A stretch of DNA of 64,000 bases. It comes from an uncultured Pelagibacteraceae bacterium. Lineage in GTDB: Bacteria; Pseudomonadota; Alphaproteobacteria; Pelagibacterales; Pelagibacteraceae. Of this stretch, positions 33,657 to 48,958 are shown piece after piece. The notes beneath the pieces are model-generated. The model was not told where the DNA came from. It was given only the letters and a program-made list of their open reading frames with translations, and did not search any database. The stretch is from the NCBI GenBank assembly GCA_902569405.1, contig CACFTX010000001.1, positions 62,001 to 126,000 of the forward strand, in the 5' to 3' direction. The position numbers were made by a program, and so were the translations under genes. Numbering within the stretch: position 1 is the first letter of the stretch; every line of letters starts with the position of its first letter.

Positions 33657-34595
33657 ATGAGTCATCAATATTATAAACCTGCAAAGTCTAGGTTGCAAAG
33701 GAGCGAATTAGCTGTACCAGGATCATCACCGAAAATGTTTGAAAAAGCCTTAAATTCTAATGCAGATTATATTTTCTTAGATCTTGAAGATGCTGTTTCT
33801 CCAAATGATAAAATTTCAGCTCGACAAAATGTTATTAAAGCGCTCAAAGAAATTAATTGGAGAGATAAAGGAAAAACTATTTCAGTAAGAATTAATAGTT
33901 TAGATACTCATTATATGTATCGTGATTTAGTAGAAATTACAGAAGAAGCGGGTGATAAAGTAGATACAATATTGTTACCAAAATCAGGAACAGCCAGTGA
34001 TGTTTATATGGTTGATTGTTTGTTAACTCAAATTGAAACTAATAAAAAACTAAAAAACAAAATAGGAATTGAATGTTTAATTGAAACAGCTTTAGGAATG
34101 TCAAATATAAAAGAAATCGCAAAGTCTAGCGATAGATTAGAAGCTCTTCATTTTGGTGTAGCAGATTATGCTGCGAGTTTAAGAGCTAGGACTGTTGTTA
34201 TCGGAGGTTTAAATCCTGATTATCCAGGCGATCAATGGCACCATGGACTATCTCAACTTGTTATGACCTGTAGAGCGTACGGCTTAAGAGCAATTGATGG
34301 ACCATTCGGAGATTTTAATGATCCTGATGCATATATAGCTTCAGCTAAAAGAGCGGCCGCAATTGGAATTGAGGGTAAGTGGGCAATACATCCATCACAA
34401 ATTGATCTAGCTAATAAAGTTTTTTCTCCTCCAGAGGCTGAAGTAAATAAAGCAAAAAAAATTATTTATGAATTAGATAAAGCTGCAAAGGAAGGAAAAG
34501 GAGCGGCACAATTAGATGGAAGAATGATTGATGCGGCATCTGCACGTATGGCAGAAAACATTGTAAATATAGATAAACTTATTAAAAGTAAATAA
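33657..34595 (+). CDS. mcl: Malyl-CoA lyase (HpcH/HpaI family, serine-cycle type)
   Basis: RSELAVPGSSPKMFEKA...DYIFLDLEDAV...FGVADYAASLRART...AIDGPFGDFNDPD...EGKWAIHPSQIDLAN; upstream of mtkAB-like genes. Confidence 0.88.
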   Translation: MSHQYYKPAKSRLQRSELAVPGSSPKMFEKALNSNADYIFLDLEDAVSPNDKISARQNVIKALKEINWRDKGKTISVRINSLDTHYMYRDLVEITEEAGDKVDTILLPKSGTASDVYMVDCLLTQIETNKKLKNKIGIECLIETALGMSNIKEIAKSSDRLEALHFGVADYAASLRARTVVIGGLNPDYPGDQWHHGLSQLVMTCRAYGLRAIDGPFGDFNDPDAYIASAKRAAAIGIEGKWAIHPSQIDLANKVFSPPEAEVNKAKKIIYELDKAAKEGKGAAQLDGRMIDAASARMAENIVNIDKLIKSK

Positions 34596-34596
34596 A

Positions 34597-35760
34597 ATGG
34601 ATATACATGAGTATCAAGCAAAAAAAATACTTTCAGGATTTGGAGTTACAATCCCTAGAGGAGGAATTGCTTACAGTCCAGAGAATGCAGAAAACAAAGC
34701 AAGAGAACTTGGTGGATCTAAATGGGTTGTTAAAGCACAAATTCATTCTGGAGCCAGAGGAAAAGCAGGTGGAATAATTGTTTGTGAAAGTGCTCTAGAA
34801 GTTGCCCAAGCAGCTGATAAACTTCTCGGTAAAAAGTTAGTTACAAATCAAACAGGTCCAGAAGGAAAAATTACAAATAGAGTTTATATAGAAGAAGCAA
34901 CGGAAATTAAAAAAGAATTATATTTAGGATTAGTATTTGATCGTAGTTCAGAAAGTATAATGGTAGTAGCTTCTACCGAAGGAGGAATGAGTGTTGAAGA
35001 AATCTCTAAGAAAAAACCTGAAACTATAATTAGATCTAAAATTGAAGTTGCTGTGGGGATGCAAAAATTTCAAGCAAGAGAAATAGCTTTTGGGTTAAAA
35101 ATTGAACCAAAGTTAATAGCGAGAGCAGCAGATACAATAATTGGATGTTATAGAGCATTTAGTGAATTAGATGCAACCATGGTAGAAGTAAATCCATTAG
35201 TTATTTCAAACCAAGATCAAATATTAGCTTTAGACTGCAAAATGAGTTTTGATAACAATGCACTATTTAGAAGAAATCAAGTTTCGGAATTAAGAGATAA
35301 AACTCAAGAAAATGTTAATGAAGTCTATGCGTCAGATAGAGGACTTAATTATGTAAGTTTAGAGGGAAACATAGGAAATATAATTAATGGAGCAGGCCTA
35401 GCCATGGCATCTATGGACATGATTAAATTGGCCGGAGGTGAACCAGCAAACTTTTTAGATGTTGGTGGAGGTGCAACTCCCGAAAAAATAGTTAAAGCTT
35501 TTAAATTAATATCTATGGATGAAAAAGTTAAAGTTATACTGGTTAACATTTTTGCAGGAATTAACAGGTGTGACTGGGTTGCTGAGGGGATAGTACAAGC
35601 ATTACAAAAGATAGAAATTAAAGTTCCTTTAGTGATTAGGTTAGCAGGAACTAATGTAGAAAAAGGAAACAAAATTTTAAAAGAAAGTAAAATAAACTAT
35701 ATAGAAGCTAATACTTTAGAGGACGCCGCGAACAAAGCAGTTAAAGCTCTAGGAAAATAA
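34597..35760 (+). CDS. mtkA: Malate-CoA ligase beta subunit (SucC homolog)
   Basis: MDIHEYQAKKIL, KAQIHSGARGKAGG, GGEPANFLDVGGGATPEKI, NIFAGINRCDWVAEGI; mcl-mtkB-ppc context. Confidence 0.85.
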   Translation: MDIHEYQAKKILSGFGVTIPRGGIAYSPENAENKARELGGSKWVVKAQIHSGARGKAGGIIVCESALEVAQAADKLLGKKLVTNQTGPEGKITNRVYIEEATEIKKELYLGLVFDRSSESIMVVASTEGGMSVEEISKKKPETIIRSKIEVAVGMQKFQAREIAFGLKIEPKLIARAADTIIGCYRAFSELDATMVEVNPLVISNQDQILALDCKMSFDNNALFRRNQVSELRDKTQENVNEVYASDRGLNYVSLEGNIGNIINGAGLAMASMDMIKLAGGEPANFLDVGGGATPEKIVKAFKLISMDEKVKVILVNIFAGINRCDWVAEGIVQALQKIEIKVPLVIRLAGTNVEKGNKILKESKINYIEANTLEDAANKAVKALGK

Positions 35761-35762
35761 AT

Positions 35763-36653
35763 ATGTCAGTTTTAATAGACAAGAAAACAAAAATTATCAT
35801 TCAAGGTTTTACAGGGAAAATGGGATCCTTTCATGCTGAAGAAATGATAAAATATGGATCAAATATAGTAGGAGGAGTTACCCCTGGAAAAGGTGGAATG
35901 AAACATCTTAACCTTCCAGTGTTTAACACAGTTAAAGAAGCTGTAAGTAACACTGGAGCTACAGCATCAATATTATTTGTTCCACCAGCTTTTGCTGCGG
36001 ACTCAGCTATGGAATCTGCTGATGCTGGCATTAAGACGTGTGTAGCAATAGTTGATGGAATACCTTCGCACGATATGATTAAAATTAAACGTTATATGAG
36101 AAGATATTCTAGAAAAGAAAAAATGACTCTAGTTGGTCCAAATTGTGCTGGGGTTATTAGTCCTGGAAAAGCAATGTTAGGCATAATGCCAGGTCACATA
36201 TATAAAGAAGGTAAAGTAGGAATTATAGGAAGGTCAGGTACACTTGGATATGAAGCTGCTCAACAATTAAAAAATTTGAACATTGGTGTTTCCACAAGCG
36301 TAGGAATTGGAGGTGATCCCATTAATGGAAGTTCTTTTAAAGATATTTTAGAAAAATTTGAAGAGGACAATGAAACCGAAGCAGTTTTGATGATTGGTGA
36401 AATAGGTGGACCACAAGAAGTGGCGGCAGGAAAATTTGCAAAAGAAAACATGAAAAAACCAGTTATAGCTTATATAGCAGGATTGACAGCTCCAAAAGGA
36501 AGGGTAATGGGCCATGCTGGGGCAATAGTGTCTGCTTATGGAGAAAGCGCAGTCGAAAAAGTTGAACTCCTGAAGGAATGTGGAGTTACTATTTCAAAAA
36601 ACCCATCAGTTATGGGGGAAACTGTAAAATCAGCTTTAAATAGTAGAACTTAA
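35763..36653 (+). CDS. mtkB: Malate-CoA ligase alpha subunit (SucD homolog)
   Basis: IIQGFTGKMGSFHAEEMIKYGSNIVGGVTPGKGG, GIIGRSGTLGYEAA, GHAGAIVSA. Confidence 0.87.
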   Translation: MSVLIDKKTKIIIQGFTGKMGSFHAEEMIKYGSNIVGGVTPGKGGMKHLNLPVFNTVKEAVSNTGATASILFVPPAFAADSAMESADAGIKTCVAIVDGIPSHDMIKIKRYMRRYSRKEKMTLVGPNCAGVISPGKAMLGIMPGHIYKEGKVGIIGRSGTLGYEAAQQLKNLNIGVSTSVGIGGDPINGSSFKDILEKFEEDNETEAVLMIGEIGGPQEVAAGKFAKENMKKPVIAYIAGLTAPKGRVMGHAGAIVSAYGESAVEKVELLKECGVTISKNPSVMGETVKSALNSRT

Positions 36654-36679
36654 AATATAAAGCAAATAGTTTATACCAA

Positions 36680-39370
36680 ATGCTAAAAAGAGATCTCTAT
36701 TACGAAAGTATACCTACAAAATCTTTGAGGGACGATGTTAGATATTTGGGAAATATTTTAGGGAGAGTAATAAAAAAACAGGAGGGAGAAAGTTTTTTTA
36801 ATTTAGTAGAGAGAATAAGATTACTGTCAAAAGCAAATATTAAAAATAAAAATAATAAAAATAGATTTAATAAAATTACTTCAGAAATTCAAAGACTTAA
36901 ACCAATTAAAATATTTAAACTAGCAAGAGCATTTACTCATTTTATGAATTTTATTAATCTTACCGAATCCATAGATGCCTCTAGAAAATTAGATGAATTT
37001 GAAAATTCTGACTTAAAAGATAAACATAAGAATATTTTTATTGAGGAAATTTTTGAAAGTCTTTTTAAAAACAAAAAAATTAAACCGCAAAAAATTTATA
37101 ATATTGCAAAAAATCTTCATATTGGAATAGTTCTTACAGCTCATCCAACTGAAGTTAAAAGAAGAACTTTGATACAAAAATACCATAAAATAACCGAGAT
37201 AATGGATCAAAGAAATCTTTTGAAGGACAAACCATCACGGTTAAAAATCTTAGATAAAAAACTTTATGATGAGTTTACAATTATTTGGAATACTGATGAT
37301 TTAAAAAGATTTAAACCGACTCCTACTGAAGAAGCAAGATGGGGACTAGCAGTAATCGAAGACAGTCTTTGGGAAACAATTCCAAAAGTTTATAGAAGAT
37401 TAAACGCTATTTTCGTAAAACATATGGGAAGGGGTTTGCCTAAAAATTTTAATCCAATTCAATTTGGATCTTGGATGGGAGGAGATAGAGATGGCAATCC
37501 AAATGTAACAGCAGCCATCACTAAAGAAGTAATACTTTTATCAAGATGGGAAGCAGCAAAACTTTACGAAAAAGAATTAACTAAATTAATTAGAAGTCTT
37601 TCAATGGAAAAATGTTCAAAAAGAATTCTCAAAATGACTGGAAAAACTTTTGAACCTTATAGAGTTTATTTAAGACCATTAAGAGATGAAATGAGAAAAA
37701 CACATAGATTGATTGAAAGACATTTGGTAGCAAAAAAACCATTAGACCAAAAAAAACTTTTGTCTTCTAAAGAGACAATTCTAAAACCTTTAAGAGTTGT
37801 ACGAGAGTCCTTAGAACAAAACCAAAGTGAAAATATTGCAAGTGGTGATTTGCTCGATTTAATGAGACGAGCTAAATGTTTTGGTATAAATCTAGCAAAA
37901 TTAGACATAAGACAAGAGTCATCAAGACATTCACAGCTATTAGCAGAATATATAAAGAAAAAAAACAATTCTAATTATTTAAATTGGAATGAAAATAAAA
38001 AAATTAAATATTTGATAAATGAAATGAAGAAAAATAGAAAAAATTTCAAAAATTTTAATTTTAAAAATAAAGAAAATAATGAAGTTTGGTCAACTTTTAA
38101 AATTTTAGCTGATGAACCATCAGAATGTTTAGGTGCTTATGTAATATCAATGACTTCAACAGCTTCAGATATTTTAGCAGTTTATTTAATGCAAATGCAG
38201 GCAAATATTAAGAATAAATTAAGAGTAGTTCCACTTTTTGAAACTTTGCAAGATTTAAAAAATGCAAAATCCATTATGGAAAAACTTTTTTCATTAAGTT
38301 GGTACAGAAAATTAATCAAAAACAAACAAGAAATTATGATTGGTTATTCAGATTCTAGCAAAGATGCTGGAAAATTATCTGCTAGCTGGCATCAATATAA
38401 ACTTCAAGAAGAAGTTTTAATTATCGCAAAAAAATATAAAATTGACCTTACTTTTTTCCATGGCAGAGGTGGCTCAGCCGGAAGGGGTGGTGGGCCAATT
38501 CAAGCAACGATGAAATCCCAACCTCCAAATTCGGTATATGGTCGTATTAGAATTACTGACCAAGGAGAAATGATTCAACAAAAATATGGTTATGAACCTT
38601 TAGCGAAATATAATTTATGTAGTTACATAGGATCTGTAATGCAGGCTACTCTAAATCCACCTCCACATCCTAAAGATAGTTGGAGAAAATTAATAGAAGA
38701 AATGACAAAAGTTTCTACTTTAGCTTATAGAAAAAATATAAACGGGAACTCAGATTTTATAAGATATTTTAAAACTGTTACGCCCCACTTAGCTCTTGGA
38801 AAATTATCAATAGGATCACGACCTTCTAAAAGAAAAAATGTAGATAATATTCAAAGCTTAAGAGCAATACCTTGGGTATTTGCGTGGACACAAATAAGAT
38901 TGATGCTGCCTGCTTGGTTGGGAACTGGCGATGCCTTAAAATATTCATCAGTTAAAAATCACAAGAATATTCTTATAGATATGGAAAAAAATTGGCCATT
39001 TTTTAATTCTACAATGGATATTTTAGATATGGTTATTTCAAAAGTTGATCCAGAGATATCAGAAGTTTATGAAAATAGTCTTGCAGATAAAAAATTAAAA
39101 GAAGTAGGTGATAAACTTAGATCTGAGTTCGCTATAATTAAGCAATTAAATAGATACATAACTCCACGAGAAATAATTAATCAAAGAAAAAAATTTAGAA
39201 CAACGGTTCTAGTTAGAAATATTTATTCTGAGGTTTTAAATATACTACAAGCCGTGGTTATGAATAAAATATCAAAGAAAAAAATCAAATCTAATGATAA
39301 GAAATATCTTAATGATGCAATGATGACATCTATAGCAGGTATATCTGCAGCCATGAAGAATACTGGTTAA
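36680..39370 (+). CDS. ppc: Phosphoenolpyruvate carboxylase
   Basis: 896 aa; VLTAHPTEVKRRTLIQKY, MGGDRDGNPNVTAAIT, FFHGRGGSAGRGGGPIQATM. Confidence 0.96.
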   Translation: MLKRDLYYESIPTKSLRDDVRYLGNILGRVIKKQEGESFFNLVERIRLLSKANIKNKNNKNRFNKITSEIQRLKPIKIFKLARAFTHFMNFINLTESIDASRKLDEFENSDLKDKHKNIFIEEIFESLFKNKKIKPQKIYNIAKNLHIGIVLTAHPTEVKRRTLIQKYHKITEIMDQRNLLKDKPSRLKILDKKLYDEFTIIWNTDDLKRFKPTPTEEARWGLAVIEDSLWETIPKVYRRLNAIFVKHMGRGLPKNFNPIQFGSWMGGDRDGNPNVTAAITKEVILLSRWEAAKLYEKELTKLIRSLSMEKCSKRILKMTGKTFEPYRVYLRPLRDEMRKTHRLIERHLVAKKPLDQKKLLSSKETILKPLRVVRESLEQNQSENIASGDLLDLMRRAKCFGINLAKLDIRQESSRHSQLLAEYIKKKNNSNYLNWNENKKIKYLINEMKKNRKNFKNFNFKNKENNEVWSTFKILADEPSECLGAYVISMTSTASDILAVYLMQMQANIKNKLRVVPLFETLQDLKNAKSIMEKLFSLSWYRKLIKNKQEIMIGYSDSSKDAGKLSASWHQYKLQEEVLIIAKKYKIDLTFFHGRGGSAGRGGGPIQATMKSQPPNSVYGRIRITDQGEMIQQKYGYEPLAKYNLCSYIGSVMQATLNPPPHPKDSWRKLIEEMTKVSTLAYRKNINGNSDFIRYFKTVTPHLALGKLSIGSRPSKRKNVDNIQSLRAIPWVFAWTQIRLMLPAWLGTGDALKYSSVKNHKNILIDMEKNWPFFNSTMDILDMVISKVDPEISEVYENSLADKKLKEVGDKLRSEFAIIKQLNRYITPREIINQRKKFRTTVLVRNIYSEVLNILQAVVMNKISKKKIKSNDKKYLNDAMMTSIAGISAAMKNTG

Positions 39371-39714
39371 AGAGATATTTCTCTTAATTTTTTAAGATAA
39401 TCTTCAAATTCTGCTACAAAGTTTTCTGTTGGCTTAATATTTTTTTTTCTTTGGTCTTCCTGAGTTTTTTGTAAATAAAAAAAACCTTTTTCACATGCTT
39501 CATTGATTATCAAGGCAGATTTTGGTCTTGAAGTTTTAAAAAGTTTTGTTTTTAGTTCTTCTACAGTTATAGGTATATTTTGTTTATAATATGCCATGAT
39601 TATAAGCATCATGTGATAGTGAGAAGGTGATTTTCTAAAAAAAAAATTACTTGAAGTATGGGCCTGTTTCATCTGTGTTTCCCAAAACTCTAGTAAAGCT
39701 TTTGTACTTTTCAT
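39367..39714 (-). CDS. Small MarR-like winged-helix protein (putative regulator)
   Basis: 115 aa; ITVEELKTKLFKTSRPKSALIINEACEKGFFYLQKTQEDQRKKNIKPTENFVAEFEDYL; start abuts the tdm stop. Confidence 0.6.
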   Translation of the reverse strand: MKSTKALLEFWETQMKQAHTSSNFFFRKSPSHYHMMLIIMAYYKQNIPITVEELKTKLFKTSRPKSALIINEACEKGFFYLQKTQEDQRKKNIKPTENFVAEFEDYLKKLREISL

Positions 39715-42042
39715 TTAAGTTCTTACTTTTAATTTTTGCGGATCATAATGAGGAAATGGAACTATTTTTGCTGGAATTCTTTTCTGGTGACCGTCCATTT
39801 TTCCTACTTCAACTTCATTTCCTATTTCAGCATGTTTTGCATCTATTCTACAAAGTGCAATATTTTTATTTAAAGTTTTAGATAGCATACCGCTTGTTAT
39901 TACACCTACTTGACCTCTACCAATATGAACTGTATTGCCAGTTACTGCTGGTTCGTGACCAACTAGTTCAAGTCCTACAAGTTTTTTTTGTGGATTATTT
40001 TTTCTTTTAATTAATTCTTCTTTGCCAATGAAATCATCTTCTTTAGTTTTAAGAGGAACTGTGAATCCTATGCCTGCTTCAAAAGGATCTGTTTTATCAT
40101 CAAACTCATAACCATAAAATATTAATCCAGCTTCTATACGGACCATGTCTAAAGCTTCTAAACCTAAAGGAGATATATTAAATTCCTTACCAGCTTCAAA
40201 AACTTTATCCCAAACTGCTCCTGCATCTTTTGGATGACACCAAATTTCAAATCCTAATTCACCAGTGTAACCAGTTCTTGATACCATAATTGGTGTTCCA
40301 GTTACGGAGTCTATTCTTGCAATAGTTAATCTAAACCATTGTAAATCTTTAATTGATGGTTGTGTATCAGGCGTCCAAGCGAATTTTTCTAAAATTTTTC
40401 TGCTATTTGGCCCTTGAACTGCAATGTTATGAATTTGATCTGTTGATGATTTTACCCAAACTTTAAAATTTTTCTTTTTTGCTTGCTCCTTTAACCATTC
40501 ACCACCATATTCTTGACCACCAATCCATCTAAAATTATCTTGTCCAAATTTCATTAACGTACCGTCATCAATCATGCAGCCATTTTCGTAACACATTGCA
40601 GAGTAAACAACTTGACCCACAGATAATTTTTTTACATTACGTGTAAGAGTATATTGCATTAAATTTTCAGCATCTGGTCCTAAAATTTCAAATTTTCTAA
40701 GTGGAGATAAATCTGTAACAATCGCACTTTCTCTGCATGAAGTGTATTCTTTGATTGCACCATAATTTGTATAATTATTTGCAAGCCAATATCCATTATA
40801 GTTAATAAAATTTTTAGTTAACTTGGATGTCTTTCCATGAAAACCAGTTTCTTGAGTAAGTTTTGGTTCTGAATCTGTGTTCACTCTAAACGCTACCCCT
40901 TTCGAAATTTTTTTGTTTTTAGAATAAGTTCTAACAAATATATCAGTAGGATTCCATCCATTTGCTGGATCAACATCACAAGGACATGCTGAAGAAGCAC
41001 ATGTTAAATCTTTTAAAGCTCTAAATAATACATAATCTCCAGGTCTAGACCAAGGTTCATCAAAAGATGCAACATTATTTGCATCAATAGCTGTATTAAA
41101 AAAAAGATTAATAGCTATCCAACCTTTTCTTGGTTTTACATCAAATTTTTTTAAAGCACCGTTAAAGTTAGTAGAACAATTTATATGACCAAAGTATCCC
41201 ATGTCCTCATAATATTTTGCAGTGCATGCATAGTTGAAAGTGTCGTGTCTTCCAACTGTATCTCTTACCACTTCAATTACAGGATCATGGTTTGCATCAA
41301 AGAATTTTGAGAATAAACCAGGCATAGGGTATGCTGCACCCATAAATGTTCTAGTTGCAGTAGGATCAATTATACTTTCTATACCTTTATCAAGTTTTTT
41401 TTTATCAAAAGCTAAAAAATCTGAACACTGTCTCCCACTTGTATCAATAATTTGAATATAATCTCCTTCCTTTACATCATAAGTTTCAGCAGTCATTCTT
41501 TTAACAAATTTTTCTGAAATTGGATCATAAAGAGGTTCGGGCAAAACATATTGTTCTTCTTTTATTTCAAATTTAGCTCTATACAAAAAAACAGTTAAAC
41601 TTGTTGGTGGGTTTTGATTATGAACTTTCATTTCTGCTCCTGGAGAAGAAACCATAACAGTACATTTATCTTTTGATTTTAGAGTTATTTTTTCATCCAT
41701 TGGGCAATCTTCACTAAAAATAATTGAAGATTTTGATTTATTTAATTCAAGATTTTTTTTTTTGAATAATTTTAAAATTTTTTCATCTTGATTAATGGCT
41801 TTTTTTAAATAATCACCATTTGAATTTTCTTTTAAATTAAGGATTGATAGATCTCCTTTTCCTTTTGAATTAAATGCGATAATTTCACAAACTTGTTTTC
41901 CTTCATTATTAATAATTTCTATTTTGTCATCTGGAAAAACTTCAAGAACATTAATTCCTCCACCTTGAACTTGATATCTTTCAACTCCTGGTGGTAAAGT
42001 TCTTAAGCCAGGATTTTTTATAGCATTACTAGTAAGCGTCAT
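39715..42042 (-). CDS. tdm: Trimethylamine-N-oxide demethylase-like (DUF1989 + GcvT/aminomethyltransferase fusion)
   Basis: N-terminal DUF1989-like region with Cys-rich CASSACPCDVDPANGWNPTDI, C-terminal GcvT-like domain (MVSRTGYTGELGFEIWC); ATG 42042 preferred (MTLTSNAIKNPGLRTLPPG). Confidence 0.88.
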   Translation of the reverse strand: MTLTSNAIKNPGLRTLPPGVERYQVQGGGINVLEVFPDDKIEIINNEGKQVCEIIAFNSKGKGDLSILNLKENSNGDYLKKAINQDEKILKLFKKKNLELNKSKSSIIFSEDCPMDEKITLKSKDKCTVMVSSPGAEMKVHNQNPPTSLTVFLYRAKFEIKEEQYVLPEPLYDPISEKFVKRMTAETYDVKEGDYIQIIDTSGRQCSDFLAFDKKKLDKGIESIIDPTATRTFMGAAYPMPGLFSKFFDANHDPVIEVVRDTVGRHDTFNYACTAKYYEDMGYFGHINCSTNFNGALKKFDVKPRKGWIAINLFFNTAIDANNVASFDEPWSRPGDYVLFRALKDLTCASSACPCDVDPANGWNPTDIFVRTYSKNKKISKGVAFRVNTDSEPKLTQETGFHGKTSKLTKNFINYNGYWLANNYTNYGAIKEYTSCRESAIVTDLSPLRKFEILGPDAENLMQYTLTRNVKKLSVGQVVYSAMCYENGCMIDDGTLMKFGQDNFRWIGGQEYGGEWLKEQAKKKNFKVWVKSSTDQIHNIAVQGPNSRKILEKFAWTPDTQPSIKDLQWFRLTIARIDSVTGTPIMVSRTGYTGELGFEIWCHPKDAGAVWDKVFEAGKEFNISPLGLEALDMVRIEAGLIFYGYEFDDKTDPFEAGIGFTVPLKTKEDDFIGKEELIKRKNNPQKKLVGLELVGHEPAVTGNTVHIGRGQVGVITSGMLSKTLNKNIALCRIDAKHAEIGNEVEVGKMDGHQKRIPAKIVPFPHYDPQKLKVRT

Positions 42043-42088
42043 AAACAGTGCTCTTTTTTTATGTCTATAATATATATATATGTTCTTA

Positions 42089-42117
42089 TTGACTATAAAT
42101 TTCCTTAAGACCATAAT
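42089..42117 (+). promoter_or_regulatory. Candidate sigma70 promoter for tmoX: TTGACT-N17-CATAAT
   Basis: Read directly: ttgact at 42089-42094, cataat at 42112-42117, 17-nt spacer. Confidence 0.6.
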
Positions 42118-42140
42118 TGAGCAACTTAATATTAAGGAAA
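42100..42140. promoter_or_regulatory. 9-bp perfect inverted repeat TTTCCTTAA-N23-TTAAGGAAA, candidate operator or 5' leader hairpin
   Basis: Arms 42100-42108 and 42132-42140. Confidence 0.6.
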
Positions 42141-42150
42141 GGGGAAGAAT

Positions 42151-43119
42151 ATGAAGAATAAGAATATGCCAATGATAATTGGTCTTATTGTTCTTGTCGT
42201 TATTGGTTTAGTTTTCTTTATGCAAAGTACAGATAAATCTGCAAAGAAAGCTGGTGATAGCGCTGAACCGATTGTAATACCAACTCATAACTGGTCTAGC
42301 CAAGTAGTTATGGCCTACGTTATAGGGGGTATTTTTGAAGCTAACGGTAATAATGTTAAATATGTTCCGGCTGACTCACAAGCTGTATATGAATCAATTC
42401 GTATAGGTGATGTAACAATATCACACGAAGTTTGGGAATCTGCTTTTGGTAAATCATTTACTACTGCTCTTGATAAGGGCGGTATACTTGACTGGGGAGA
42501 TCACGAAGCAAGAACTCTTGAGGATATGGGATATCCAGATTGGGTTGCTGCTAAGTGTCCAGGTTTACCAGATTGGACAGCTTTAAAAAATCCTGACTGT
42601 GCTAAAAACTTTGTAACTCCTGACTCAGGTGGAAAAGGCCGAATGTTAGAAGGGCCTCAAACTTGGCATGGAGATTTAATACCGCAAAGGATTGACGCTT
42701 TAGGTTTAGGAGATCTTTGGGTAGTTAAATTTGCTGGAAGTGCAGACGCACTTTGGGCAGAATTAGCTGCAGCTAAAAAAGAAGATAGAGGTACGATAAT
42801 TTTTAACTGGACACCAAACTTTACAGATGGTGCTGGTTTTACATTTATAAAGTTCCCTCCGTATACAGCTGGTTGTAGACCAGAAGATGGTGGTGATGGT
42901 AAATGTGGTTCTCCAGATGGTTATTTGAAAAAGGCTGTTAATGCAGACTTTCCAAAAACTCATCCGGGAGCAGCAGACATTTTCAAGAAAATGTCGTTCT
43001 CTACAGGTCAAATTGGTGCAATGGCAGCTTTAGTTGACCTTGACAAAATGACTCATGAAGATGCAGCTAAAAAATGGTTAGCTGACAACGAGTCAGTTTG
43101 GAAAGCTTGGATGAACTAA
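42151..43119 (+). CDS. tmoX: ABC transporter substrate-binding protein, glycine betaine/TMAO type
   Basis: IVIPTHNWSSQVVMAYVIGGIFEANGNNVKYV OpuAC-like start; divergent from tdm, with transporter genes tmoV and tmoW downstream. Confidence 0.85.
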   Translation: MKNKNMPMIIGLIVLVVIGLVFFMQSTDKSAKKAGDSAEPIVIPTHNWSSQVVMAYVIGGIFEANGNNVKYVPADSQAVYESIRIGDVTISHEVWESAFGKSFTTALDKGGILDWGDHEARTLEDMGYPDWVAAKCPGLPDWTALKNPDCAKNFVTPDSGGKGRMLEGPQTWHGDLIPQRIDALGLGDLWVVKFAGSADALWAELAAAKKEDRGTIIFNWTPNFTDGAGFTFIKFPPYTAGCRPEDGGDGKCGSPDGYLKKAVNADFPKTHPGAADIFKKMSFSTGQIGAMAALVDLDKMTHEDAAKKWLADNESVWKAWMN

Positions 43120-43150
43120 TTATAGTGAATCAAGGCTAACAAATTTTAAT

Positions 43151-43187
43151 CTCCCCCAACTGTGTATGTTGGGGGGGATTTTTTTTT
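43151..43187 (+). terminator. Intrinsic terminator after tmoX
   Basis: CCCCCAAC tgtgtat GTTGGGGG stem followed by 9 T. Confidence 0.9.
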
Positions 43188-43212
43188 ATAAAATTTTGTG
43201 TAAAATGTAACA

Positions 43213-44150: not shown

Positions 44151-44214
44151 GGAGGGAAAACAACAATTATATAGATTTTATTTTTACTGAATATCGTATA
44201 ACTTGTTAAACGAA

Positions 44215-45246
44215 ATGAGCGATGCTGTAATTAAGTGTGAATCTGTCTACAAAATATTTGGTGCGAATGCCAAAAAAATGCTCCAAGAAGCAAATGGAAA
44301 TGTAGATGCTAAAACATTCCAAGAAAATGGATGCATTGTAGGTGTGAACAATGCTTCTTTTGAAGTTTCAAAAGGAGAAATGTTGGTTGTAATGGGATTG
44401 TCTGGTTCAGGAAAATCTACATTATTAAGATGTATTTCTAGACTAACAGATGCAACTGGCGGGAAAATTTATATAGAGGGTCAAGATTTACTCTCATTAA
44501 AAGATAAAGAGTTAATTGAACTTAGAAGAAATAAAATGGGAATGGTTTTTCAGAGTTTTGCTTTGCTTCCACATAAAACAGTTTTGGAAAATATTGCTTT
44601 TCCACTTCAAATCAAAGGAATAGAGACAGAGAAGAGTATTAATAAAGCTATGGATATGGTTAAACTTGTTGGTCTTGATGGAAGAGAAAATTATTTTCCA
44701 AGAGAACTTTCAGGTGGACAACAACAAAGAGTAGGTATCGCTCGATCATTAGCTGTGGAACCTGATATTTGGTTTTTAGATGAACCTTTTTCTGCACTAG
44801 ATCCCTTAATTAGAAAAGAAATGCAAGATGAATTTTTAAGACTTCAAGAAAAATTAAAAAAAACAATCATGTTTATTACTCATGATTTTGATGAAGCATT
44901 AAAACTTGCTGATCGTATAGCAATTATGAAAGATGGAATAATTGAACAGTTAGACACTCCAGCAAAAATTGTTTTAAATCCAGCAACTGAATATGTAAAA
45001 AAATTTACTGAAGAAGTGCCAAGAGAAAAAGTTTTAATAATAGAAGATGTAATGGATGCGCCAACCTCAGAAAATTTAAGCGATCTAAAAGTTTCAAAAG
45101 ACGAAATAATAGAAAATGTAGCTGAAAAGATTTTATCACAAGAAAAGTCTGTAGGTGTAACTGACGAAAATAATAAAATTGTTGGTACAGTTCATCCTTC
45201 TAAAATAATTCATACTGTTTTTGGAGGAAGAAAAGAAAGCAGTTAA
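44215..45246 (+). CDS. tmoV: ABC transporter ATP-binding protein, betaine/proline/TMAO type
   Basis: GLSGSGKSTLLRCISRL, LSGGQQQRVGIARSLA, C-terminal CBS-like region; ATG 44215 preferred over TTG 44203. Confidence 0.87.
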   Translation: MSDAVIKCESVYKIFGANAKKMLQEANGNVDAKTFQENGCIVGVNNASFEVSKGEMLVVMGLSGSGKSTLLRCISRLTDATGGKIYIEGQDLLSLKDKELIELRRNKMGMVFQSFALLPHKTVLENIAFPLQIKGIETEKSINKAMDMVKLVGLDGRENYFPRELSGGQQQRVGIARSLAVEPDIWFLDEPFSALDPLIRKEMQDEFLRLQEKLKKTIMFITHDFDEALKLADRIAIMKDGIIEQLDTPAKIVLNPATEYVKKFTEEVPREKVLIIEDVMDAPTSENLSDLKVSKDEIIENVAEKILSQEKSVGVTDENNKIVGTVHPSKIIHTVFGGRKESS

Positions 45247-45249
45247 ATT

Positions 45250-47403
45250 ATGGAATTATTAAAAAAATATCCAAAATTATTTCAATGGTTATTTTTGTTA
45301 ATTGTATTTTTTGCCTTATGTTTTGCAATTGATGTTCCTGAAACCTATAAATTTATAAGAGGTCAAGCTGAATTTATTAAAGACCCTAACCAAAGTACTT
45401 ACATACTTTTTGGTAAAGAAGTAAGATATTACGCATTTGACAATTTCTGGAGGTTACCTCCTTTACTTGGATGGTTGCCTATTTGGATAAATGATGGTCT
45501 ATTTTTCCTATTGAATGAATGGATGCCAATGGAATTTTGGGATTCTGCTACACAAGAATATAAAACTCGACCTTTAGTATTGCAAATATCAAGAAACATA
45601 ACCGCGTTTATGACATTTCTTATTGAATTAATTAGAGAAATTTTATTAGGTGGCGTTGAAACAATTGTTGCATTTACAAGTTGGAATTTTGTAAGTGCAT
45701 ATCCTTGGGCAAAATTACCAGGCTTACCTTGGACAATTGTTGCCGCGGGTGCAGCGATCTTAGCTTACAAATTGAGTGGTAAGGGCTTAGCTATATTTGC
45801 TGCTTTAGTAATGATTTATATTTCAGTGTTTGGTCAATGGAAACCTTCAATGCAAACACTTTCTTTTATTTTGGTAGCAGCACCACTTTCTTTTATTTTT
45901 GGATTAAGTTTAGGTGTTATGGCTTATAAGAGCAAACGAGTTGAGAAAGCATTATATCCAATACTTTTAGTTATGCAGACTATGCCTCAATATGCTGTTC
46001 TAGTCCCAGCAATGGTTCTGTTTGGCATTGGTGATCATGCTGCAGTTATAATAACAATGGTTGTTGCTATTCCACCAATGATTCTATTAACTTTGATAGG
46101 TCTTAGGGGAGTATCTCCAGAAGTTATTGAAGCTGGTAAAATGAGTGGATGTAGTAATTGGCAACTTTTAACTGAGGTATTAATTCCAACTGCCAGAAGA
46201 GATATTTTGATTGGTGTTAACCAAGTCATTATGGTTTGCTTTTCTATGGCGGTTATTTCAGCTTTTATAGGTGCCAAGGGTTTAGGATGGAATTTATTGT
46301 TGGCTTTAAATCAATTAAATATTGGTTTGGCATTAGAAGCAGGCTTATGTATTAGTTTGATTGCAATACTTCTAGACAAAATGTCTTTAGCTTGGGCTAA
46401 TAAGCAAACTGATTATTTTGGTAATCTGACATTTTATCAGCGTTATAAAAATACAATATTTTTTGGTGGAGCTGTGTTGATTGGTGCGATACTTGCTATT
46501 TTTGGATCTTTTTTCTTTAAAGAAGGCTTTAATTATTTATATGAGGTTCCTCACAATAAAGGAATATCAACCGCAGATTTCTGGAACAAAGGTGTTGATT
46601 GGATCTTTGATACGTTCTTCGTGTACATAAAAGCATTTAATACATGGTTAATTACAGAAGTTCTTCAGCCAATGAGAGCGTTGTATCTAAGAATGCCGGC
46701 AGTTGCTACTTTAGTATTAGTTGTTGGTGCAGGCTATATAATTGGTGGAATTCGTTCAGCTTTTACAGTGGGTGGATTAACATTATTTATAGCTCTAAGT
46801 CCTTGGTGGGATAGAGCATTAGTAACAACTTATATGGCAACTTTTGGAGTCATTATATCTTGTACAATTGGATTTATAGTGGGAACTTTATGTCAACAAA
46901 ATAAATATACTACAAATTTTATGTTAGGAGTTTGTGATATTTTTCAAACATTTCCATCGTTTGTATACCTAATTCCAGTAATGATGTTATTTGGAGTTAC
47001 AGACACTTCAGTATTAATTGCCGTAATTGTTTATGCAACTATACCTGCAACAAGATATACTATTGAGGGGTTAAGAAGTGTTCCGGCTGCTTTGCATGAT
47101 GCAGCTACAATGTCGGGTGTAACGAAATTACAAAGATTATTCAAAATAGAATTTCCTTTAGCATTTCCACATATGATGCTTGGATTAAATCAAACAATAG
47201 TATTTGCTTTATTTATGGTAATTATAGGAGCATTTATAGGAACCGAAGATCTAGGACAATATATTTTAAAAGCTTTATCTGATAAGGCAGGTGGTGGCAA
47301 AGGATTGGTGCTTGGAATTTGTGTTGCTTTTATAGGCCTTATATTTGATAATTTAATTCGTACTTGGGTAGAAAAAAGAAAAAAACATCTTGGTATAGAC
47401 TAA
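45250..47403 (+). CDS. tmoW: ABC transporter permease with two fused membrane domains
   Basis: 717 aa; two EAA-like loops (EAGKMSGCSNWQLLTEVLIPTARRDILIG and HDAATMSGVTKLQRLFKIEFPLAFPHMMLG). Confidence 0.85.
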   Translation: MELLKKYPKLFQWLFLLIVFFALCFAIDVPETYKFIRGQAEFIKDPNQSTYILFGKEVRYYAFDNFWRLPPLLGWLPIWINDGLFFLLNEWMPMEFWDSATQEYKTRPLVLQISRNITAFMTFLIELIREILLGGVETIVAFTSWNFVSAYPWAKLPGLPWTIVAAGAAILAYKLSGKGLAIFAALVMIYISVFGQWKPSMQTLSFILVAAPLSFIFGLSLGVMAYKSKRVEKALYPILLVMQTMPQYAVLVPAMVLFGIGDHAAVIITMVVAIPPMILLTLIGLRGVSPEVIEAGKMSGCSNWQLLTEVLIPTARRDILIGVNQVIMVCFSMAVISAFIGAKGLGWNLLLALNQLNIGLALEAGLCISLIAILLDKMSLAWANKQTDYFGNLTFYQRYKNTIFFGGAVLIGAILAIFGSFFFKEGFNYLYEVPHNKGISTADFWNKGVDWIFDTFFVYIKAFNTWLITEVLQPMRALYLRMPAVATLVLVVGAGYIIGGIRSAFTVGGLTLFIALSPWWDRALVTTYMATFGVIISCTIGFIVGTLCQQNKYTTNFMLGVCDIFQTFPSFVYLIPVMMLFGVTDTSVLIAVIVYATIPATRYTIEGLRSVPAALHDAATMSGVTKLQRLFKIEFPLAFPHMMLGLNQTIVFALFMVIIGAFIGTEDLGQYILKALSDKAGGGKGLVLGICVAFIGLIFDNLIRTWVEKRKKHLGID

Positions 47404-47617: not shown

Positions 47618-48958
47618 TTATTTTTTTGATTGATTTAAAAAAACTTTTGAAGAGTCATCCATTGCTGTTGCCCATGGCGTATGATGAATAGGAGCAATAG
47701 ATCCTGTAACAGGTGAAGAGAAAGATTTATTTCTATAAGTCATAATATCTTCTACTTTGTGATGTTCCCATTCTTTAAAATGTTTTCTAATCAACTCAAA
47801 GTCAATTTTTGGATAATCTGATAACTCATGAAGTTCTTTTGTATACTCTGTTTGAAAATCTATCATTTGATCAGGATTTTCTAACTTTTCTTCTAATGCA
47901 ACCCATTTATTTATATCTTTTTCTATTTTTGATTTATTTGGAATCTTAATTTTACCCATAATAACATCTCTTGCATACCAAGCTTGACAATCAAACATAT
48001 TAAAAGTGTGAAATTGATCTTGCATACCTAAATAAATTAATTTGTGATTATCTTGCCATACAACTCCTTTATAGAGTTTTGGTGGATATAGTCTGTTTCT
48101 AGTTTTTAGTTTAAGGTCTTCAGTTAAAAAAGGGAAATGATGGAGATAGCCAGAGCACAAAATTATTGCATCAGCTTCTTGCTTGTGACCATCTTTGAAA
48201 ATTGCTTTATTTCCATCTAGTTTATCTAAATAATGTACTTCCTTAACTCCGTTAGGCCATTTAAATCCCATTGGATTATTTCTGTAGCCTATAGTTACGC
48301 TTTTAGCACCATATTTGTGACACTGGAGAGCAACATCTTCAGCCGAATAACTGCTTCCTAAAACAATAACATTTTTTCCTCTAAACTCTTCTGCATCTCT
48401 AAAATCATGTGAATGTAAGATTCTACCTGGAAAGGATTTCATTCCTGGGTATTCTGGGATAAAAGGAACAGAAAAATGACCAGTAGATACTACCACATAA
48501 TCAAAAACATCTTTTGAAAATTTATCATTTTTTTTGTCGTGAGAAGTAATTTCAAAATTATTTCCATTAAAAACAACAGCAGAAACACTGGTGTTAAATC
48601 TTACTTTATTTTTTAAATTACCTTTTTTTACTCTACCAGTTATATAATCATATAAAACTTCTCTCGGTGGGAATGATGGAATTTGCTTTCCAAAATGTTC
48701 ATCAAATGAATAGTCGGCAAATTCTAAACACTCTTTAGGACCATTTGACCATAGATATCTATACATACTATTAGGAACTGGATCACCATATTGATCAGAA
48801 CCTGTTCTCCAACTATAATTCCACAAACCTCCCCAATCTTCTTGTTTATCGAAGCATGTTATTTGAGGGATTTTTTCACCTTTTTTTTCAGCTTGTTCAA
48901 AAGATCTCAACATAGACAAACCACATGGTCCCGCACCTATAATTGCTACTTTTGTCAT
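47618..48958 (-). CDS. tmm: Trimethylamine monooxygenase (flavin-containing monooxygenase family)
   Basis: GAGPCGLSMLRSFEQA, VVSTGHFSVPFIPEYPG (FMO-type FxGxxxHxxx region), second Rossmann VLGSSYSAEDVALQC, C-terminal HHTPWATAMDDS. Confidence 0.9.
   Translation of the reverse strand: MTKVAIIGAGPCGLSMLRSFEQAEKKGEKIPQITCFDKQEDWGGLWNYSWRTGSDQYGDPVPNSMYRYLWSNGPKECLEFADYSFDEHFGKQIPSFPPREVLYDYITGRVKKGNLKNKVRFNTSVSAVVFNGNNFEITSHDKKNDKFSKDVFDYVVVSTGHFSVPFIPEYPGMKSFPGRILHSHDFRDAEEFRGKNVIVLGSSYSAEDVALQCHKYGAKSVTIGYRNNPMGFKWPNGVKEVHYLDKLDGNKAIFKDGHKQEADAIILCSGYLHHFPFLTEDLKLKTRNRLYPPKLYKGVVWQDNHKLIYLGMQDQFHTFNMFDCQAWYARDVIMGKIKIPNKSKIEKDINKWVALEEKLENPDQMIDFQTEYTKELHELSDYPKIDFELIRKHFKEWEHHKVEDIMTYRNKSFSSPVTGSIAPIHHTPWATAMDDSSKVFLNQSKK

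Follow-up and report, generated by a model that had tools for sequence, protein, structure and literature searches.

The tdm-tmoX region of the window, a 64,000 bp stretch of a SAR11 (Pelagibacteraceae) genome of 1.21 Mb (G000, contig C1:62001-126000), is a divergon for trimethylamine N-oxide (TMAO) uptake and demethylation that has two separate candidate control features, a small MarR-fold protein encoded directly downstream of tdm and a palindrome at the predicted 5′-end of the tmoX mRNA (Table 1). In the explanation that we favor, to which we assign a probability of about 0.5, the tdm operon ends in the gene for this protein, which is probably expressed from the same message. The protein would most likely regulate this pathway locally and specifically, probably by repressing the tdm/tmoX region or linked methylamine genes, with the repression probably relieved by a methylated amine or its product. 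Separately, a palindrome adjoining the Shine-Dalgarno region would form the start of the tmoX mRNA and would most likely act as a 5′-terminal leader hairpin, setting how stable this very abundant transporter mRNA is or how well it is translated.

Table 1. Features of the TMAO locus, with positions in the window
Feature	Position	Strand	Basis or detail
115-aa MarR-fold winged-helix protein (sm)	39367..39714	-	directly downstream of tdm; AlphaFold, Foldseek, gene order
tdm, trimethylamine N-oxide demethylase	39715..42042	-	NCBIfam NF053776, 1140 bits vs cut-off 1100
tmoX promoter	42089..42117	+	TTGACT (42089-42094), N17, CATAAT (42112-42117); conserved across genus
9-bp inverted repeat, judged fortuitous	42100..42140	.	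arms TTTCCTTAA (42100-42108) and TTAAGGAAA (42132-42140)
Predicted tmoX transcription start	42123..42124	+	by homology with HTCC7211 start
Leader palindrome CTTAATATTAAG	42125..42136	.	predicted mRNA 5′-end, next to Shine-Dalgarno
tmoX Shine-Dalgarno AGGGG	42140..42144	+	sequence; conserved in leaders
tmoX, TMAO-binding protein of ABC importer	42151..43119	+	Pfam OpuAC 2.2e-39; opposite tdm
tmoV, rest of TMAO importer	44203..45246	+	with tmoW within 44203..47403
tmoW, rest of TMAO importer	45250..47403	+	after tmoV
tmm, trimethylamine monooxygenase	47618..48958	-	NCBIfam NF058570, 746 bits vs cut-off 675

SAR11 are the most abundant bacteria in the ocean, and TMAO import is among their most expressed functions and feeds the marine methylamine flux. 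In the genome collection, the window genome has uncultured Pelagibacteraceae as its closest relatives, and comparison with relatives locates the conserved tdm start at ATG 42042, so the tdm-tmoX spacer is 108 bp (42043-42150); the 799-aa tdm frame begins too far upstream. The 5′-end of tdm faces tmoX, in the divergent arrangement, in 104 of 105 loci. The tmoV/tmoW region matches Pfam ABC_tran and BPD_transp_1 and NCBIfam models of choline/betaine-type transporters. Directly after tmoX and before tmoV and tmoW there is a strong terminator-like hairpin (CCCCCAAC ... GTTGGGGGG followed by a T run; 43150-43190, + strand), as would be predicted for a binding protein that is overproduced. In five loci (L013, L062, L065, L068 and L072) the tmoX facing tdm is only 42% identical; the transporter has been replaced there, and a similar promoter and leader precede the replacement. 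The interval separating tdm from the methylamine genes (33657-39370, + strand) contains a citE/malyl-CoA-lyase-like gene, genes for a malate-CoA ligase beta-type and a succinate-CoA ligase alpha-type subunit, and PEP carboxylase, a set that resembles part of the serine cycle.

The region was initially annotated as a candidate TMAO-responsive switch, and the responsiveness of tmoX and tdm has in fact been measured in a SAR11 strain: in HTCC1062, RT-qPCR documented that TMAO induces tmoX, tdm and gmaS and that tmoX is not induced by choline (PMC8918994). Among the open-licence literature we found no paper on the SAR11 115-aa protein or on a named regulator of SAR11 TMAO induction. The analysis provides a specific candidate protein for regulation of the TMAO genes in SAR11, and the leader element may explain high transporter-gene expression in genomes that have few regulators.

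The tmoX promoter and leader palindrome

The comparison covered 141 homologous promoter regions, which were reduced to 45 distinct sequences. The proposed tmoX promoter holds up, with conservation far beyond chance. Conserved among the 45 distinct regions are TTGACTAT and the -10 element, with almost no information in the 7 nt that follow the -10. A transcription start was positioned with the help of mdRNA-Seq coordinates published for HTCC7211 genes (PMC5069720, Table 2). One genome in the collection (G235) was identified as HTCC7211 by the match of its tmoX coordinates to those of opuAC/tmoX PB7211_687 in that table. Of the genes listed, all 8 that have no mapped start are a multiple of three in length and 17 of the 28 that have one are not, a pattern from which we take the tabulated 5′ boundary to be the mapped start. 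Read in this way, the table coordinates, rather than any statement in the paper, would place the +1 of HTCC7211 tmoX 6 nt after CATACT and one nt before ATTAATATATTAAT, and the leader stem would thus begin near the 5′-end of the transcript.

The 12-mer CTTAATATTAAG is present as a single copy in the 1.21-Mb genome, which rules out a genome-wide regulon for this sequence. Its symmetry is widely kept. Of 121 distinct tmoX leaders, 98 have a perfect palindrome 12 bp or more in length, versus 2.3% of shuffles, and 104 have one of at least 10 bp, versus 8.0%. The variants, in which both sides change together, include CTTAATATTAAG, CTTAATATATTAAG, ATTAATATTAAT, CTAGTACTAG and CTATATATATAG, with AATAATATTAATATTATT, TAATGTTAACATTA and others in sister genera, and both sequence and length (10 to 24 bp) vary between clades. 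The palindrome is also kept in genomes that lack the MarR-type protein (G463, G201, G202 and G267), including one, G463, in which neither this protein nor tdm was found. A single leader is common to G267 and to G300, which has the protein, and in the sister genera the leaders are similar whether or not the protein is present. The palindrome was therefore rejected as the private operator of the MarR-type protein; the two are independent features. As the symmetry is maintained both through sequence change and without the protein, the leader comparison argues that the palindrome is under constraint and is not that protein's own site.

The leading reading for the palindrome is a leader hairpin, with a DNA operator for another factor as the alternative. 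They remain rivals because the folding energies give no support to an RNA stem that is stable in general: across the 121 leaders the energy is on average not below that of shuffles (mean z -0.1), and RNA stability was rejected as a general explanation of the palindrome. The hairpin predicted for the main genus is weak and the stems of the sister genera are stable. G.U pairs and A.C mismatches in the leaders, compared with each other, are too few to decide, and no Rfam family, riboswitch or other, scored above its gathering threshold in the window.

A dimeric regulator, which in the main genus might be the MarR-type protein or else a different factor of SAR11, could instead bind the palindrome (about +1 to +14) as DNA, with the changing sequence then reflecting co-evolution of site and regulator. 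We consider this a possible reading, although clearly one with less than an even chance. Most of the palindromes have no non-pairing loop, and their two-fold symmetry extends through the centre, which fits an operator better than a hairpin; the position at the transcription start would suit repression, and the poor folding energies point the same way. On the other hand, sequence and length change freely between clades, the same palindromes occur in sister genera with and without the MarR-type protein, and five leaders (L010, L017, L092, L209 and L078) keep pairing only through G.U or with non-palindromic loops.

The MarR-fold protein downstream of tdm

The 115-aa ORF proved to be as first described, its ATG immediately following the tdm stop codon, and it is conserved far beyond chance. 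The protein has no significant match to any Pfam or NCBIfam model, and its profile reached SarX only at E 0.4. With the curated MarR sequence models unmatched, the protein is filed here by its fold and not as a member of a sequence family. An AlphaFold model, based on an alignment of 48 sequences from loci in the genome collection (pLDDT 82.9, pTM 0.73), has helices at residues 4-17, 30-44, 51-57, 63-75 and 97-113 and strands at 79-83 and 91-95. This is a winged-helix topology with N- and C-terminal flanking helices in the MarR order, in which residues 63-75 are counted as the third helix and 79-95 as the wing of a MarR-type fold. Foldseek returned 31 matches in the PDB at E<=0.001, the best at 5.7e-05, and the matches listed are MarR-type regulators, among them PefR, AbfR, ST1710, MepR, MhqR and HpaR, in agreement with the winged-helix fold that had been expected. 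Many SAR11 genomes also encode a paralog of 137-138 aa with about 29% identity to the protein, for example at locus L142, and at L141 (3128-3541, - strand) it overlaps a different catabolic gene set.

All 103 loci of the genus in which tdm was found with enough surrounding sequence have the gene for the 115-aa protein immediately after tdm and in the same orientation. In most, the tdm stop and the start codon of the small gene overlap (TAATG) or are only a few bases apart, which suggests that the two genes are translationally coupled. Eighteen genomes of the genus that are at least 90% complete have no 115-aa protein; 17 of these also have no tdm, and in the remaining one (G112) tdm is present but is cut by the contig end. 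In several sister-genus genomes, tdm and tmoX are present without the protein. It adjoins a soxB-like (sarcosine-oxidase-like) FAD oxidoreductase gene in a complete genome that has no tdm (G217), follows a soxB-like gene in G271, and follows tdm and then soxB in G206. Given these placements beside soxB-like genes, the protein appears to travel with methylamine genes.

The 115-aa protein is plausibly a new regulator of a known type and a credible candidate for control of this pathway, and control of the divergon with an amine as ligand, as originally proposed, is likewise plausible. The analysis identified no operator for the protein, and because the sister-genus leaders are alike with and without it, the protein may act elsewhere, for example on the soxB/mgd genes. 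In a stronger form of this argument, the main targets of the protein would be the downstream methylamine genes (soxB/mgd, gmaS), and the tdm operon would merely carry its gene. The placements in G217, G271 and G206 are consistent with such a target, as is the location of the Roseobacter regulator TmaR, which is also often encoded beside mgd (PMC13390433). The strict pairing with tdm in 103 of 103 loci argues against a passenger, and we regard this as an unlikely, but by no means negligible, account of the protein. Local regulation that may include the tdm/tmoX region itself is the interpretation retained here.

Palindromes at other transporter genes and the 9-bp repeat

Binding-protein genes other than tmoX also have palindromes near their starts. 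A leader control taken from genes around the tdm loci is too small once tmoX is removed, and 817 kb of the window genome consequently supplied the genes for comparison. A palindrome of at least 12 bp is located near the start of 8 of 14 binding-protein genes, including tmoX, versus 14 of the roughly 290 other genes (P 4e-7 by Fisher test, an optimistic value since the 14-gene set was chosen after the pattern was seen). The families with a palindrome before the start are TRAP, AapJ, NMT1-like, SBP_bac_3, Peripla_BP_6 and ProX, and the fourth DctP gene, which was inspected once the pattern had become apparent, lacks one. The behaviour of the palindromes differs between families. The sequence of the aapJ palindrome is unchanged in 30 genomes; in the nmt1-like genes the palindrome sequence changes and about half of the genes have none, and proX is weak. 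In the aapJ leaders themselves (L348-L377), TTATTTGTTAACAAATAA is almost invariant in the 30 genomes, and a second repeat further upstream, TTCAAA...TTTGAA, has a loop that varies. The znuA leader (L340; G000 C1:405717, - strand) has TGTTATATTATAACA before a ZnuA-like gene, a sequence that resembles a Zur box.

The pattern across binding-protein genes is mixed and is a lead rather than a result. It is conceivable, if speculative, that SAR11 binding-protein mRNAs have in common a leader whose 5′-end carries a short perfect palindrome, fixed in symmetry and free in sequence, that sets very high output without a dedicated regulator. The tmoX palindrome could, at the other extreme, be a functionless by-product of AT-rich sequence and quasi-palindrome repair. 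The genome is AT-rich and palindromes of such length are not rare genome-wide, but their frequency in the distinct tmoX leaders far exceeds that in the shuffles, and the palindrome persists while the 7 nt separating it from the -10 are free to vary, which together make this origin improbable.

The initial annotation suggested control of the divergon through a perfect 9-bp inverted repeat, either as an operator for the MarR-type protein or as an mRNA leader hairpin. The repeat exists, with arms that match at 100% and lie 23 nt apart, its coordinates are correct and it overlaps the promoter, and the MarR-type fold of the 115-aa protein would fit such a role. An equally long repeat is, however, present in 5.4% of dinucleotide shuffles of the 108-bp spacer. 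Despite the conservation of the protein, full complementarity of the arms is limited to 3 of the 141 homologous promoter regions, those of the window genome and of two near relatives, and 8 or 9 of the 9 positions are complementary in 7. The start derived from the HTCC7211 coordinates falls downstream of the left arm, which would then not be transcribed, so the repeat could not form a hairpin in the mRNA. Binding of the protein to these arms, with repression of tmoX and tdm, is largely refuted, and the repeat is in all likelihood a coincidence that has no part in control; a false operator is thus removed from consideration.

Comparison with known systems

The 115-aa protein has the winged-helix fold common to MarR-family regulators such as MepR, AbfR and PefR. 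It is, however, shorter than these, has only about 15-20% identity to them, and is unmatched by Pfam and NCBIfam models. Regulators of methylamine metabolism have been described in Ruegeria pomeroyi, where TmaR (AraC type) and TmoR (GntR type) control tdm and tmm, and TmaR homologs are reported mainly in Rhodobacterales, Hyphomicrobiales and Gammaproteobacteria (PMC13390433). The SAR11 protein is similarly encoded within a methylamine gene cluster, but TmaR and TmoR belong to protein families different from that of a MarR-fold protein. Of the two features, the less usual one is the leader palindrome. Bacterial mRNAs are known to be stabilised by 5′-terminal stem-loops, as in ompA and papA (cited in PMC3997798), and, like these, the tmoX leader has an inverted repeat at its predicted extreme 5′-end, before the Shine-Dalgarno sequence, although the stem predicted for the main genus is much weaker than those of ompA and papA.
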